Source: Bacteroidota bacterium | GTDB taxonomy: Bacteria > Bacteroidota > Bacteroidia > UKL13-3 | Assembly (NCBI GenBank): GCA_027482225.1 | Contig: JAIXWD010000016.1 | Span: forward strand, 78,050-142,049 | DNA length: 64,000 nucleotides | Direction of reading: 5' to 3' | Shown: in pieces, positions 53,869 through 60,555 of the stretch | Layout: every line of letters begins with the position of its first letter | Numbering within the stretch: position 1 is the stretch's first letter | Position numbers and translations under genes: made by a program | Notes under the pieces: model-generated | The model's database searches: none | Told to the model about the DNA's origin: nothing | What the model saw: the letters and a program-made list of their open reading frames with translations, nothing else

Positions 53869-54501
53869 TTATGATGCCTCAACTTGTGTTTCTGTATGTT
53901 GTTCGTTATCGCTTTTATTGGATGTTGACGAACTTGCTTCTTCTTTAAAAAATATTTTTTGACCCAATAGAATAATCACAAAGCCAATACTAATTGCTGC
54001 ATCTGCTACGTTAAAAACGGGTCTAAAAAATTCAAAATCTTCTCCTGCCCAAAATGGCCAGTTTTGTGGTATAGTTGTTTGAATAATAGGGAAGTAAAAC
54101 ATATCAACTACTCTTCCATGAAACCAAGAATCGTAATCAAATAAGATACCATAGAATATACTATCTATAATATTACCTAATGCTCCAGATAGAATTAATG
54201 CCCATGAAATAATATACCATTTGTTGGTCTCTTTTTTAGTTAGATCAAAAATATACCACCCAATAAATGTAACGGCAACTAGTCGGAATAATGTTAGTAG
54301 TATTTTACCTCCCTTTCCACCAAACTCTAAACCAAAGGCCATACCGTAATTTTCTGTAAAGTGTATACGGAACCAATCTCCAAGCACATGTATTTCTTCG
54401 CCAAGGTAAAAGTTTGTTTTGATGTAGAGTTTTACCATTTGGTCTATAAACAATACAACAAGCACTATAAGTATAGGTAGTCCTAATTTTTTAAATTTCA
54501 T
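53869..54501 (-). CDS. lspA: Lipoprotein signal peptidase
   Basis: LspA cleaves prolipoprotein signal peptides at the lipobox Cys in the inner membrane, 210 residues, with a longer polar C-terminal tail (SSSTSNKSDNEQHTETQVEAS). Catalytic Asp residues lie in ILSGALGNIIDSIFYG and FNVADAAISIGF, family motifs, and FTENYGMAFGLEFGG is also characteristic. Four hydrophobic segments are visible. It lies downstream of ileS and the DksA-like gene, an arrangement common in Bacteroidota, except that a deletion scar sits between them here (54566-55578). Confidence 0.95.
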   Translation of the reverse strand: MKFKKLGLPILIVLVVLFIDQMVKLYIKTNFYLGEEIHVLGDWFRIHFTENYGMAFGLEFGGKGGKILLTLFRLVAVTFIGWYIFDLTKKETNKWYIISWALILSGALGNIIDSIFYGILFDYDSWFHGRVVDMFYFPIIQTTIPQNWPFWAGEDFEFFRPVFNVADAAISIGFVIILLGQKIFFKEEASSSTSNKSDNEQHTETQVEAS

Positions 54502-54565
54502 TTTTAGCTCTTAATAAAGCAAAAGTATGAAACTACAATCAATTTATGCGCACTTATCGCATCAT

Positions 54566-54862
54566 TTAAAAGCCAATACCTAATCCAAACCTAAAGAACC
54601 AGTTGTTATTGTTAGTGTTTGAAATAACCCTTCCTGCATCAATCCTTACAACACTAAATATATTTGCTAAACCAATGTATGCTTCGGTGTATGTGTTTGA
54701 CGCGGTTTGTAAAAAGTTAATTCCTGCTAATTCATAGGCTCTTGTTTTTCGGAGTATAGGCACTTTACCAATAAAAAAGCTCCTGAAATTTTGTAATGCG
54801 TGTATTTCAATATACTTATTTTGGGTACTTAATCCATAGTAGTTAAGCCAATTTGAATTGTT
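54566..54862 (-). pseudogene. 3' remnant of a DUF5686/carboxypeptidase-like outer-membrane protein
   Basis: The reverse-strand frame is open from 54862 to the TAA at 54566. The track reports only its last 65 codons, starting at a GTG. It reads WLNYYGLSTQNKYIEIHALQNF, FFIGKVPILRKTRAYELAGINFL, then YTEAYIGLANIFSVVRIDAG and the end FFRFGLGIGF. This is the C-terminal barrel end of DUF5686-type outer-membrane proteins, which are usually around 800 residues; the rest is missing. It has no start codon or ribosome site. Its 5' edge runs into the S9 peptidase fragment in a different frame, so this is a fragment left by a deletion. Confidence 0.7.
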
Positions 54863-55578
54863 TTATCTTGTTCTTCTAATATTAACTCATCGTTACTAAA
54901 ATGATTTCCTAAAATATGCCTGTAAACTCTATAAGCTCTGTTGGTTTTAGGTTCTGGTGTTGTGTAATAAAAGGTGCGGTTATCTTCTGCCCATATAAAA
55001 GAAGTAATAGCAGGAATGGTATCGGTTAAAAGGGAGTCACCATCAATATGCTTAAAAAATAATTTGCCAATATTATTTCCTTTATCATCAATGGCATATG
55101 CAAATAATGTTTGGTTTGGACTAATACTAGAAACTGCTAATGAAAAATACATGTACTGTTGTGCTAATACATTTAAATCAAGCACCAATTGCTCCTTGGC
55201 TGTTAACGAATCTTTTTTACGATAAATAGCTGGATAATCTCTGTCTTTTAAAGAACGGCTGTAATAATAGTAGTTTTTATTTTTTGATGGTCGGGTATCC
55301 TTTGCCTCTACCAGTCTGCCGCGCATTTCATCAAAAATTACTTTTTGTAATAAGGCCGAAGATTTCATCTCTGCATCTGCATGAGCATTATTGGCATATA
55401 AATAATTAACCACCTCAGCGCTATATTTATCACGCATCCAGAAATATGAATCTATTAACGTGTCGTTATGTATGTATGTTTTAAATGGTATTTTATCGGC
55501 TTTTGGGTAATTAAACTGCTGGCCAAAACAGATTGTGCTTGTAACTAATGTTAAAACAAGTAGTATTTTGTTCTTCAT
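54829..55578 (-). pseudogene. 5' remnant of an S9-family prolyl oligopeptidase (oligopeptidase B-like)
   Basis: The frame has a signal peptide (MKNKILLVLTLVTSTICFGQQ) and then FNYPKADKIPFKTYIHNDTLIDSYFWMRDKYSAEVVNYLYANN, the start of an S9A oligopeptidase, with EMRGRLVEAKDTRPSKNKNYYYYSR and further propeller segments to LILEEQDKTIQIGLTTMD. It stops at 54829 after 249 residues, whereas family members are about 680-720 residues with the Ser-Asp-His catalytic domain in the last third. No catalytic residue remains. The final residues TTMD arise where the coding frame meets DUF5686-derived sequence. It is read as a broken gene, not a short paralogue. Confidence 0.78.
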
Positions 55579-55878
55579 GATATAGAATATTGCTTTGTAA
55601 ATAAAGCACGTGGTATCGTTATAGTCAAATTAAAATATATAAAGATAAATTTTAAATGATAAGCGGAAATAAACCCTAACTTTTCGTCTTTTTATTATAC
55701 TTATTTTACATCTTATCTTATTTAAGGAAAATGAATTTATGCTCTATTTTTGCATAAAAATTTAACTGTAATATCTTATTTACCATTCAATTTTATTGCT
55801 ATATCTGATTTTAAATTAGGCATAAAAAAAGCGGCTAGGATATCTTCTAGCCGCTTTTTAATTAACGTTTTATCAGTG
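55579..55878. other. Spacer between the S9 fragment and the DksA-like gene
   Basis: 300 bases, AT-rich, containing the hairpin terminator at 55826-55859 that ends the ileS - DksA-like transcript. The left part should hold the former S9 promoter, but no exact -7 box was found. No coding feature is supported. Confidence 0.5.
55826..55859. terminator. Terminator after the DksA-like gene
   Basis: AAAAAGCGGCTAG and CTAGCCGCTTTTT are a perfect 13-bp stem with an 8-base centre (GATATCTT). It ends the reverse-strand transcript 20 bases after the stop at 55879. Confidence 0.9.
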
Positions 55879-57168
55879 TTATTTATACTGTTGCAGTTTA
55901 GCTTCCATACTTAATGTTGTATGAGGCACTGCACGTAACCTTTCTTTTGGAATTAGCTTACCTGTAACTTTGCAAATACCGTATGTTTTGTTTTCGATAC
56001 GTACCATTGCATTTTCTAAGTTTTCGATAAACTTCTTTTGACGTGCAGCCAATTGAGCGATGTATTCTTTTTCTTGGCTTGATGTTCCATCTTCAGCTGT
56101 TTTGTATGAGTTGTCAGTATCATCACCTGCATTCATTCCTGGGTTTTGCATTTGATCTATTAAATCACCCAATTCTTTACGTGCAATTTCTAATTTCTTA
56201 TTAATGATGTCTTTGAACTCTGCTAAGTCTGCATCGCTATATCTTTTAGCTTCGGTAGCTTTTTCTAATGTGTCTTTCTTCTCAATAAAGTGAACTGGTT
56301 TAGCAGCAACTGCTCTTTCTACCTGTTCTTTTTTCTCTAATATTTTTTGGATTGGACTTATTGAAGGAGCAATCTCTGTTTTTTTACTTGGTTTTGTAAT
56401 CTTCTTAATCTCTACTTTTTTAACAATAGGTTTTGCCACCACAGCTACTTTTTTAGAAACTGGAGCTTCTTTTACTATTGCTTTTTTTACCACTACTTTT
56501 TTAGGAGCGGGTTTAGCTACAACCTTTTTTACCACTACTTTTTTAGGAGCGGGTTTAGCTACAACCTTTTTTGCAATCACTTTTTTAGGAGCAGGTTTAG
56601 CTACAACTTTTTTCGCTACTGCCTTTTTAGGAGCAGGTTTAGCTACAACTTTTTTCGCCACTACTTTTTTAGGAGCAGGTTTAGCTGCTACCTTTTTAGC
56701 CACTACTTTTTTAGGAGCAGGTTTAGCTGCTACCTTTTTAGCCACTACCTTTTTAGGAGCAGGTTTAGCTGCTACCTTTTTAGCTACAACTTTTTTAGGA
56801 GCGGGTTTAGCTGTAACTTTTTTAGCCACTACCTTTTTAGGAGCAGGTTTAGCTGCTAACTTTTTAGCTACAACTTTTTTAGGAGCAGGTTTAGCTGCTA
56901 ACTTTTTAGCTACAACTTTTTTAGTAGCGGGTTTAGCTGCTAACTTTTTAGCTAAAACTTTTTTAGGAGCGGGTTTGGCTGCTACCTTTTTAGCCACAAC
57001 TTTTTTAGGAGCAGGTTTAGCTGTAACCTTTTTAGCCACTACTTTCTTGGGAGCAGGTTTAGCTGCTGCTTTTTTAGCGACTACTTTTTTAGAAACGGTT
57101 TTAGCAGCAGGTTTAGCTGCTTTCTTAGGAGCTGGCTTAGCAGCCTTTTTTATCACTTTCTTAGCCAT
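55879..57168 (-). CDS. DksA/TraR-like protein with a Lys/Ala/Pro repeat tail
   Basis: A 429-residue protein with two parts. Residues 1-236 are low-complexity and basic: after MAKKVIKKAAKPAP come 15 units of 14 residues of the form KKVVAKKVAAKPAP (units vary by V/L, A/T/V), like the histone-H1/AlgP type. Residues about 300-429 are a DksA/TraR-like coiled coil and C-terminal domain (YSDADLAEFKDIINKKLEIARKEL; AEDGTSSQEKEYIAQLAARQKKFIENLENAM; YGICKVTGKLIPKERLRAVPHTT). Only one Cys remains where the zinc finger has four. It lies 6 bases after ileS in the same operon and is followed by a terminator. The basic tail suggests DNA or RNA binding, and the second part RNA polymerase binding; both are inferred. 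Confidence 0.85.
   Translation of the reverse strand: MAKKVIKKAAKPAPKKAAKPAAKTVSKKVVAKKAAAKPAPKKVVAKKVTAKPAPKKVVAKKVAAKPAPKKVLAKKLAAKPATKKVVAKKLAAKPAPKKVVAKKLAAKPAPKKVVAKKVTAKPAPKKVVAKKVAAKPAPKKVVAKKVAAKPAPKKVVAKKVAAKPAPKKVVAKKVVAKPAPKKAVAKKVVAKPAPKKVIAKKVVAKPAPKKVVVKKVVAKPAPKKVVVKKAIVKEAPVSKKVAVVAKPIVKKVEIKKITKPSKKTEIAPSISPIQKILEKKEQVERAVAAKPVHFIEKKDTLEKATEAKRYSDADLAEFKDIINKKLEIARKELGDLIDQMQNPGMNAGDDTDNSYKTAEDGTSSQEKEYIAQLAARQKKFIENLENAMVRIENKTYGICKVTGKLIPKERLRAVPHTTLSMEAKLQQYK
56461..57090 (-). repeat. Tandem array of 15 x 42-bp units within the DksA-like gene
   Basis: Fifteen consecutive 14-codon units, each reading KKVVAKKVxAKPAP or close to it, fourteen well kept and the last degenerate (KKVVVKKAIVKEAP). 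Neighbouring units are nearly identical at DNA level (for example the stretch at 56680-56760), which fits slippage or recombination. Unit pairs 2-3 and 7-8 share the VT/VA order, suggesting multi-unit duplication. Copy number may vary between strains. Confidence 0.9.
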
Positions 57169-57174
57169 AAAGAG

Positions 57175-60100
57175 TTAATTAGCTTTTGTTAATTGAACTT
57201 TTATAAGGTGTTCGTCAACCTCTATTTCTGCCGAAAGCTCTGCTGCTGTCACAATCTCAAGCTTATCAGCTAAAATTTCCGTGCAAATATATGCTTTATA
57301 AGCATTTATAGCATTGTTTATATAATCGTGCAACAGTATTTGTACATTTATTTTATCAGTTACCTCTAAACTTGTCTCTTTTCTTAAGGCCTGAAGCTTG
57401 CTAACTACCTCACGTGCAATACCTTCTAGTTTTAGTTCTGGACTTATTTCTATATCTAGAGCTACCGTAACTTTTCCTTCGTGGGCTACTTTATAACCCG
57501 TAATATCTTTCGACATGATTTCCACATCGTTAATTTCCAAAGACATCTCTTCGCCTTCAACGTCTATGTTAATACAGCCCTTTTGCTCTAATTTTGAAAT
57601 TTGTTCTGTATTCATAGCTAAAATAGCATCGCCCACAGCCTTCATTTTTGCACCTACTTTTTTACCCAATACCCTAAAGTTTGGTTTGATAGATTTTTCA
57701 ATTTCTTCAATAAATTCAAGTTGTTTTACATTTACCTCAGATAAAATCAAATCTTGTACATGTATGATTTCGTCTTTAATGCGCGCATCAACCATTGGGA
57801 TTAAAATTTTTTGTAGCGGTTGACGAACTTTGATGTTTTCTTTTTTACGAATAGATAACACCAATGAAGATATTTTTTGTGCATACTCCATTTGTTCTTC
57901 TAATCGTAAGTCAATTAAATTTTCATCAGCGTTTACCAAATCAGTTAAATGCACCGACTCGCTTTTACCATTTAAATTTTTGTATACCCAATCGCTAAAA
58001 AATGGCGCAAACGAACTGCTTAATTGCGATATTGTAATTAAACATTGGTATAAAGTTTCGTAAGCGGCTTTTTTATCTGCATTCATTTCACCTTTCCAGA
58101 AACGCCTGCGGCTTAAACGAATAAACCAGTTACTGAAATGGTCGCCTGTAAATTCTTCTATGGCACGAACAGCTGGTGTGGCATCGTAATCGTCCATGTG
58201 TTCGCGAACCAATTTAACCAAGCTGTTTAATTTGCTTATAATCCAACGATCCAATTCGGTGCGTTCGCTTATTGGTGTTAAGTTGTTTTCGTCAAACTCA
58301 AACCCATCAATATTGGCGTATATAGCAAAGAAAGAATAGGTGTTGTACAATGTGCCAAAAAACTTACGTTGACTTTCAGCTACGCCTTCCAAATCAAACT
58401 TAAGGTTATCCCAAGGATCACTGTTGCCTAACATATACCAGCGTGTGGCATCTGCACCGTATTTAGATATGGTTGCAAACGGATCAACAATGTTGCCTAG
58501 ACGTTTGCTCATTTTTACCCCGTTTTTATCTAAAACCAGTCCGTTGGCAATTACATTTTTAAAGGCAATTCCAGGATTATTGTTTTGTTGGTTGATGGTC
58601 TTAATTTCATCACTACATTCATTTAATAAAACAGCAATTGCGTGTAATGTAAAAAACCATCCACGGGTTTGGTCAACACCTTCTGCAATAAAATCAGCAG
58701 GGTAGTTCTCGCTTAAGGGAATTTCTTTGTTAAAAGGAAAATTCCATTGCGCATATGGCATCGCGCCACTATCAAACCAAACATCAATTAAATCAGCTTC
58801 ACGCAACATTCTTTCGCCCTTACTCGATACCAATATCAATTCATCAACATATGGTTTGTGCAAGTCTTTCATTTCAAAATCTTGCGGAATAAATCCTGCA
58901 ACTTTTGCTTTGGCAAGTTCTTCTTGTAACTCGGCATTAGAGCCAATGCATTTTTCCTCAGTACCATCCTCTGTTCTCCAAATTGGTAGAGGCGTTCCCC
59001 AATAACGTGAACGAGATAAATTCCAATCTACTAAGTTTTCTAACCAATTACCAAAACGTCCAGTTCCGGTGTGCTCTGGTTTCCAATTAATTTTTTGATT
59101 GGCTTCAACCAGTTTGTCTTTGTATGCAGTTGTTTTAATAAACCAACTTTCTAGTGGGTAGTATAAAATGGGCTTATCGGTTCTCCAACAATGCGGATAT
59201 GTATGTTCGTATTTTTCTTTCTTAAACAACTTACCTTCGGTTTGTAATTTAAGAATGATGCGCTCATCCACGCTCAGGTAATTTAATTTTGAGGTATCTT
59301 TAATTACACCACTTAATTTTTCTTTTTGTATAACAAGAGCTGCTTCTTTTTCTGCATCGGTTAAGTAGGCTTCTTTTACGTATTCTTCTCCATATAAAAA
59401 TTGTCCGTCTTGCACTTCGGGTAAAAACTTACCGCGTTTATCAACCAAAGTTAAACTGCCAATGCCGTTTTGTTTAGCAACCCTAAAGTCATCTGCACCA
59501 AAACTTGGCGCAATGTGCACAATACCTGTACCATCTTCGGTTGTTACAAAATCTCCTGTAATTACTTTAAATGCATCACCATTTTCTACATTGGCAAAAG
59601 GCAACAATTGCTCGTAACGTATTCCGGCTAGGTCGGCACCTTTAATTTCTTTTACTACTTCAAATGGTATGTTTTTATCACCAGCTTTATAATCAACTAA
59701 TTTTAACTCCGCATTTTCTGCTTTAAAATGTTTGCCAAGTAAATCTTTTGCTAACACAACGGTACATGGCTGATGAGTATTAGGGTTAAATGTTTTTATG
59801 AGTGCATAATCAATTTTAGCACCAACAGCTAATGCTGTGTTAGATGGCAAAGTCCAAGGAGTGGTGGTCCAAGCCAAGAAATATACATCGCCTTCAAATG
59901 GCGCGTGAATGGCTTTAAACATAGCCACAGCGGTCATGTCTTTTACATCTTTGTACGTGCCAGGTTGGTTTAACTCGTGCGAGCTTAATCCAGTTCCTGC
60001 AGCAGGAGAGTAAGGTTGAATGGTGTAACCTTTGTACAACAAACCTTTATTGTACAATTGTTTTAAAATCCACCAAAGCGATTCGATGTAGTTGTTATCG

Positions 60101-60555
60101 TAAGTTACGTAAGGATCGTTTAGGTTAACCCAATAGCCCATGCGTGTGGTTAAGTTGTTCCACACATCGGTGTATTTCATTACATCTTTTTTGCAGGCTT
60201 CGTTGTATTCTGCCACCGATATTTTTTTACCAATATCTTCTTTGGTAATGCCCAATGTTTTTTCTACTTGCAACTCAACAGGCAAACCGTGAGTATCCCA
60301 ACCAGCTTTACGTTTTACCTGAAAACCTTTAAGTGTATTGTAACGGCAAAAAATATCTTTAACCGTGCGGCTCATTACATGGTGAATACCCGGCATACCA
60401 TTAGCACTTGGCGGACCTTCGTAAAACACAAAAGATTTTGCGCCAGCGCGGTTGCTCACGCTTTTTTCAAAAATGTGATGTTCTTGCCAAAACTTAAGTA
60501 TTTCCTCTTCAAATGCAGGAAAGTCAAGTTTTTTGTATTCGTTGTATTTACTCAT
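57175..60555 (-). CDS. ileS: Isoleucyl-tRNA synthetase
   Basis: Class I aminoacyl-tRNA synthetase charging tRNA-Ile, cytoplasmic, 1126 residues, in line with the longer (ileS2-like) bacterial form. Motifs: GPPSANGMPGIHHVMSR, holding the HIGH-type signature; the editing (CP1) domain with AWTTTPWTLPSNTALAVG and GTGIVHIAPSFGADD; LDVWFDSG-like LIDVWFDSGAMPYAQW; DQTRGWFFTLH and DKNGVKMSKRLGNIVDP, the KMSKR motif; and a C-terminal anticodon-binding domain. It is the first gene of an operon with the DksA-like gene, 6 bases apart. The C-terminal zinc-type Cys motif was not obvious. Confidence 0.95.
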   Translation of the reverse strand: MSKYNEYKKLDFPAFEEEILKFWQEHHIFEKSVSNRAGAKSFVFYEGPPSANGMPGIHHVMSRTVKDIFCRYNTLKGFQVKRKAGWDTHGLPVELQVEKTLGITKEDIGKKISVAEYNEACKKDVMKYTDVWNNLTTRMGYWVNLNDPYVTYDNNYIESLWWILKQLYNKGLLYKGYTIQPYSPAAGTGLSSHELNQPGTYKDVKDMTAVAMFKAIHAPFEGDVYFLAWTTTPWTLPSNTALAVGAKIDYALIKTFNPNTHQPCTVVLAKDLLGKHFKAENAELKLVDYKAGDKNIPFEVVKEIKGADLAGIRYEQLLPFANVENGDAFKVITGDFVTTEDGTGIVHIAPSFGADDFRVAKQNGIGSLTLVDKRGKFLPEVQDGQFLYGEEYVKEAYLTDAEKEAALVIQKEKLSGVIKDTSKLNYLSVDERIILKLQTEGKLFKKEKYEHTYPHCWRTDKPILYYPLESWFIKTTAYKDKLVEANQKINWKPEHTGTGRFGNWLENLVDWNLSRSRYWGTPLPIWRTEDGTEEKCIGSNAELQEELAKAKVAGFIPQDFEMKDLHKPYVDELILVSSKGERMLREADLIDVWFDSGAMPYAQWNFPFNKEIPLSENYPADFIAEGVDQTRGWFFTLHAIAVLLNECSDEIKTINQQNNNPGIAFKNVIANGLVLDKNGVKMSKRLGNIVDPFATISKYGADATRWYMLGNSDPWDNLKFDLEGVAESQRKFFGTLYNTYSFFAIYANIDGFEFDENNLTPISERTELDRWIISKLNSLVKLVREHMDDYDATPAVRAIEEFTGDHFSNWFIRLSRRRFWKGEMNADKKAAYETLYQCLITISQLSSSFAPFFSDWVYKNLNGKSESVHLTDLVNADENLIDLRLEEQMEYAQKISSLVLSIRKKENIKVRQPLQKILIPMVDARIKDEIIHVQDLILSEVNVKQLEFIEEIEKSIKPNFRVLGKKVGAKMKAVGDAILAMNTEQISKLEQKGCINIDVEGEEMSLEINDVEIMSKDITGYKVAHEGKVTVALDIEISPELKLEGIAREVVSKLQALRKETSLEVTDKINVQILLHDYINNAINAYKAYICTEILADKLEIVTAAELSAEIEVDEHLIKVQLTKAN

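Follow-up and report, generated by a model that had tools for sequence, protein, structure and literature searches.

Three described systems come close to the locus reported here. Oligopeptidase B belongs to the S9A peptidases (PRK10115/NF007511; PDB 7zjz and 7ywp) and has, in the Serratia enzyme, the catalytic triad S532-D617-H652 (PMC9917282). DUF5686 (PF18939) occurs in stand-alone proteins of about 850 aa. Finally, genes can be lost by deletion at short microhomologies, which leaves pseudogenes. In the window, by which we mean the whole stretch of 64,000 nucleotides that was analysed, pieces of an S9 peptidase gene and of a DUF5686 gene lie between a dksA-like gene and lspA. We consider it very probable that they are the product of a recent and real deletion inside one fusion gene.

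The scar between dksA and lspA

The features of the locus are as follows.

53869..54501, minus strand: lspA, the downstream neighbour, intact (Pfam Peptidase_A8, 1.8e-35)
54520..54527, minus strand: TACTTTTG, a Bacteroidota -7 promoter-like element just upstream of lspA, conserved in the genus, with TAnnTTTG similarly placed in most other loci
54566..54847, minus strand: 3' remnant of the fusion gene, the last 93 DUF5686 residues plus the stop codon, in the other frame (Pfam DUF5686, 2.5e-13; 86-89% amino acid identity to G005 and G002)
54829..55578, minus strand: the 249-aa ORF left after the deletion, its last four residues out of frame (ORF call and comparison at the joint)
54845..54848, minus strand: deletion joint, with the 4-bp microhomology GCTT common to both sides (window versus G004; 3559 bp missing)
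54845..55578, minus strand: 5' remnant of the fusion gene, a signal-peptide-like segment and the first ~245 codons, covering the first half of the S9/oligopeptidase B propeller (Pfam Peptidase_S9_N, 1.6e-45; amino acid identity over 245 residues 97% with G004, 93% with G005)
55824..55861, minus strand: intrinsic-terminator-like hairpin after dksA (-19.8 kcal/mol, z -5.7), with similar hairpins after dksA in relatives
55879..57168, minus strand: dksA-like gene with a histone-like tail, the upstream neighbour, intact (Pfam zf-dskA_traR, 1.3e-7; HC2, 1.2e-7)

The original prediction placed the N terminus of an S9 peptidase, 249 residues long, beside a DUF5686 tail in another frame, with the two frames meeting at about 54845, and both statements were confirmed. 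The 249-aa ORF matches Peptidase_S9_N at profile positions 12-230 of 414 (E 1.6e-45) and is truncated within the propeller, and the frame at 54566-54862 (minus strand) encodes a DUF5686 C terminus (profile 609-669 of 669; E 2.5e-13). The two remnants are in different frames, and each is truncated on its inner side. Their predicted lengths needed some correction: the ORF does have 249 residues, of which 245 are homologous and four are out-of-frame read-through before the stop, and the DUF5686 remnant has 93 residues rather than the ~85 expected. The only peptidase match in the window copy is the one at Peptidase_S9_N positions 12-230, and the oligopeptidase B catalytic domain is absent from it. 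About one-third of oligopeptidase B is retained, with none of the catalytic residues.

Comparison with G004, the closest relative, resolves the joint to the base, and the attribution of both inner truncations to a single deletion was supported. On the left flank 44 of 44 bases are identical up to the joint, on the right flank 64 of 65 are identical from GCTT onward, and the 3559 bp in between are missing from the window; relatives carry the intact sequence. As the missing length equals 1186 codons plus one base (3 x 1186 + 1), the frame is shifted, and the ancestral reading frame is destroyed by a stop after 249 codons. The joint fits a single illegitimate recombination at the 4-bp microhomology, judging from the bases shared by the two sides. 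Each remnant corresponds to a part of a single intact homologue found at the same locus in relatives, and the missing part is absent elsewhere in the genome: residues 248-1420 have no high-identity copy in the assembly (2.72 Mb in 24 contigs, 99.9% complete, and the sole assembly of the species compared). The only other long match to this query, on another contig, is an S9 protein with 30% identity, and a stand-alone DUF5686 gene that the same genome has on contig C15 is a different paralogue. Taken by itself, the scar is an ordinary recent gene loss.

An uninterrupted ileS-dksA-lspA operon had also been assumed, and this did not hold, as a terminator follows dksA and a promoter-like element precedes lspA, also in genera without the insert. 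TAnnTTTG is the -7 promoter motif of Bacteroidota. It is found upstream of lspA in 15 of 17 loci (all except G009 and G022) and within 29 bp in 14, whether the insert is present or absent; its frequency in the 8.3-kb region predicts about 0.02 occurrences in a 30-bp stretch. Upstream of the fusion gene, there is no TAnnTTTG within 330 bp. The hairpin after dksA is followed by a U run, and none of 200 shuffled sequences was as stable; a simple terminator scan did not list it, probably because A-T pairing lengthens the stem so that it includes part of the T run. Both the terminator and the -7 element survive the deletion. Insertion and deletion thus appear to have fallen between two retained transcription signals, and since the neighbours keep their own signals, loss of the fusion gene would be easy to tolerate. 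In the upstream neighbour (55879-57168, minus strand), the DksA/TraR zinc finger is joined to a long Lys/Ala/Pro-rich tail with histone H1/HC2-like repeats, part of which matches HC2 at 1.2e-7, below the Pfam cut-off. Most relatives read have a comparable Lys-rich tail (DksA/TraR proteins of 333-429 aa).

The intact gene and its distribution

Relatives were fetched via lspA and their local genes were then mapped, and a genus-wide search added further copies. In three members of the same genus, one uninterrupted ORF lies between dksA and lspA (1523 aa in G005 and in G002, 1525 aa in G007), and in each of them Pfam finds Peptidase_S9_N, Peptidase_S9, CarbopepD_reg_2, and DUF5686. The layout is that of a signal-peptide-like segment, oligopeptidase B, CarboxypepD-reg, and DUF5686 in one chain. 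DUF5686 in the intact relatives scores 647.5 bits against a gathering score of 39.2 and covers positions 1-669 (E 3.3e-194). The genus-wide search added G004, whose frame is open for 1465 codons until the contig end, a G001 copy matched over 1485 residues, and a G008 copy of 987 residues, limited by its contig. The scar derives from one fused gene of 1523 aa and not from two genes. Aligning related genomes at dksA-lspA had been proposed as a check, and it did uncover intact sequence that supports a deletion, but as a single fused ORF instead of the anticipated gene pair. A 249-aa S9-like protein conserved as such, which would have spoken against a deletion, was seen in none of the genus members examined. 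We also considered regulatory constraint on the 3' end of the fusion gene but do not claim it: over the final 93 codons, synonymous divergence is low for G005 versus G002 and is not low for G002 versus G008.

In nine loci from other genera that have both neighbours, the dksA-lspA gap is 79-143 bp in eight and 964 bp in one, and the fusion gene was not found between dksA and lspA in any of the nine. As these genera have no such gene at this site, the fusion gene would have come there within the genus, and the losses indicate that it later disappeared more than once. This agrees with the predicted order of an insertion between dksA and lspA followed by loss. The intact fusion gene is uncommon. 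Elsewhere in the family it is present in g10 and in one g2 genome, a draw of 395 genomes from the class contained it in 4, which belong to families f3 and f5, and a draw of 396 genomes from the phylum gave none at E 1e-80; it is also present in further metagenome-assembled genomes. Where neighbourhoods were read, these homologues lie in other gene neighbourhoods. Complete homologues in other families are single ORFs of about 1516-1533 aa. In one distant partial relative (L114:3-3296), the peptidase and DUF5686 parts are two ORFs six bases apart, with the break near residue 740; the split may be genuine, or it may stem from a frameshift or a sequencing error.

Age of the loss, a second loss, and other explanations

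The deletion is young. Between the window and G004, the remnant has a dS of 0.109 and a dN of 0.012, the window branch (polarised with G005) carries 7 synonymous changes and 1 nonsynonymous change, and there are no further stops or frameshifts in the window remnants. We judge the event recent because the remnants have not decayed so far; the same counts would be equally compatible with an artefact, or with a mixed sample of which the window shows one allele.

The genus shows a second loss. In G006, the dksA-lspA spacing is 526 bp and only the DUF5686 tail is left, with stops; compared to G005, 4438 bp are missing, beginning upstream of the start codon of the gene. Flank trees were built from nucleotides, as the lspA and ileS protein trees are too conserved to resolve close species. 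G005 and G006 group together in all three data sets (ileS+dksA, 100/100; dksA, 93/92; lspA+pepP, 91/82). In the tree of the nearest gene, dksA, the window and G004 group together (99/100). They do not in the ileS-dominated set, and a mosaic ileS is the probable reason: window ileS (57175-60555, minus strand) has a dS of 0.28 to G004, compared to about 0.11 for dksA and the S9 remnant, which suggests that ileS has recombined in either the window genome or G004. Since G004 and G005 are both intact, the deletions in the window and in G006 would most simply be independent. Their right-hand ends lie ~36-40 bp apart in the 3' part of the fusion gene (around 9088 in L036, versus 54848 in the window), and this closeness may be a coincidence. 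It is also the one point in favour of a single ancestral deletion that was afterwards enlarged in G006, an explanation that we find improbable, as the flank trees join G006 with intact G005 and dksA joins the window with intact G004. The fusion gene is absent from G003, of the same genus, where lspA (L040) adjoins ccm-like genes for cytochrome c biogenesis, which lie on the opposite strand, so that the genome is rearranged at this point.

An assembly collapse had been named as the main alternative to a deletion. The intact gene would then still be present, and the assembler would have left out about 3.56 kb, or would have combined two alleles from a mixed population. The undecayed remnants, the intact state of the closest relative, and a joint that rests on one assembly are compatible with this. 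However, the 4 bp that the two sides have in common are far too short an overlap for any assembler, there is no N at the joint, which lies within a 483-kb contig, and the missing middle is on no other contig of the 99.9%-complete assembly. Moreover, a related genome (G006) lost the same gene by another deletion. An artefact is therefore quite unlikely. Even less likely is the original view that two separate genes, for an S9 peptidase and a DUF5686 protein, were inserted side by side and joined by one deletion. Stand-alone genes of both kinds are common, also in the genome studied, and the partial distant relative has its parts in two ORFs; against this, each complete copy at the locus in the genus is one ORF of 1523-1525 aa, as are the complete homologues in other families, so we give this explanation almost no credence.

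Conceivably, the 249-aa remnant still functions in truncated form, perhaps as a secreted half-propeller able to bind peptides but not to cut them. In favour of this are the open frame and the mostly synonymous substitutions on the window branch (7:1), but the deletion is too young for this count to be informative, the product stops within the propeller without a catalytic domain, and such a short form occurs in none of the relatives. We therefore regard a function as very doubtful, and the remnant presumably has none. A recent deletion inside one fusion gene accounts for the locus as follows. The ancestor of most of the genus would have carried, after the dksA terminator and before the lspA promoter, a gene for a secreted oligopeptidase B-CarboxypepD-reg-DUF5686 protein. 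In the window lineage, one recent illegitimate-recombination event at the 4-bp microhomology would have removed the remaining propeller together with the catalytic and CarboxypepD-reg domains and most of DUF5686; the resulting frame shift would have inactivated the gene. With the signals of the neighbours untouched, such a loss could have been tolerated.

The fusion protein compared with known systems

In the intact relatives, residues 21-696 align with oligopeptidase B (PDB 7zjz; E 2.9e-156). They have an N-terminal propeller and a Ser-Asp-His triad in an S9 catalytic domain: S555, D640, and H675 (G005 numbering) are conserved in 14 of 14 aligned sequences, with the same spacing as S532, D617, and H652 of the Serratia enzyme. 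Their score against the PRK10115 NCBIfam equivalog is 548.7 bits and does not reach the cut-off of 1313. The peptidase half is homologous to oligopeptidase B yet is not a PRK10115 equivalog. For residues 702-1523, an AlphaFold model has low confidence (pLDDT 47); almost all of the PDB entries that match it best are Omp85-type barrels (BamA, TamA, Sam50; E down to 3.5e-7), but the TM-scores are low, so that the predicted resemblance of DUF5686 to these barrels is only a lead. Judging from the domains, the signal peptide probably exports the protein, which DUF5686 would anchor in the outer membrane, and the oligopeptidase B half would cleave short peptides after Arg or Lys, either in the periplasm or on the surface. 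In the literature searched, no description of a peptidase, CarboxypepD-reg, and DUF5686 in one chain was found, and no paper named DUF5686. We tentatively suggest, at slightly less than an even chance, that the intact gene represents an undescribed architecture in which an exported oligopeptidase B is tethered to an Omp85-like outer-membrane barrel, patchily distributed across several Bacteroidia families and repeatedly discarded in this genus.

The scar is unusually clean, with a close relative that resolves its joint to the base and another in which the gene was lost through a different deletion. The scar also uncovers a gene family combining a peptidase, CarboxypepD-reg, and DUF5686, and the intact fusion is, modestly, of more interest than the scar. 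The natural losses give a basis for comparison in studying the role of a membrane-tethered oligopeptidase B. Among known systems, the window scar shares with deletion pseudogenes formed at short microhomologies the two-sided truncation, the frameshift, and a few bp of homology at the joint, and it differs notably only in the second loss in a close relative. The peptidase half of the intact relatives is closest to oligopeptidase B; the fusion protein has, in addition, a signal-peptide-like segment at its N terminus and about 820 aa fused to the C terminus of the peptidase. As in the stand-alone DUF5686 proteins, the CarboxypepD-reg domain precedes DUF5686 in the fusion, whereas here DUF5686 sits behind a peptidase and shares only about 25% identity with its stand-alone paralogues in the genus.
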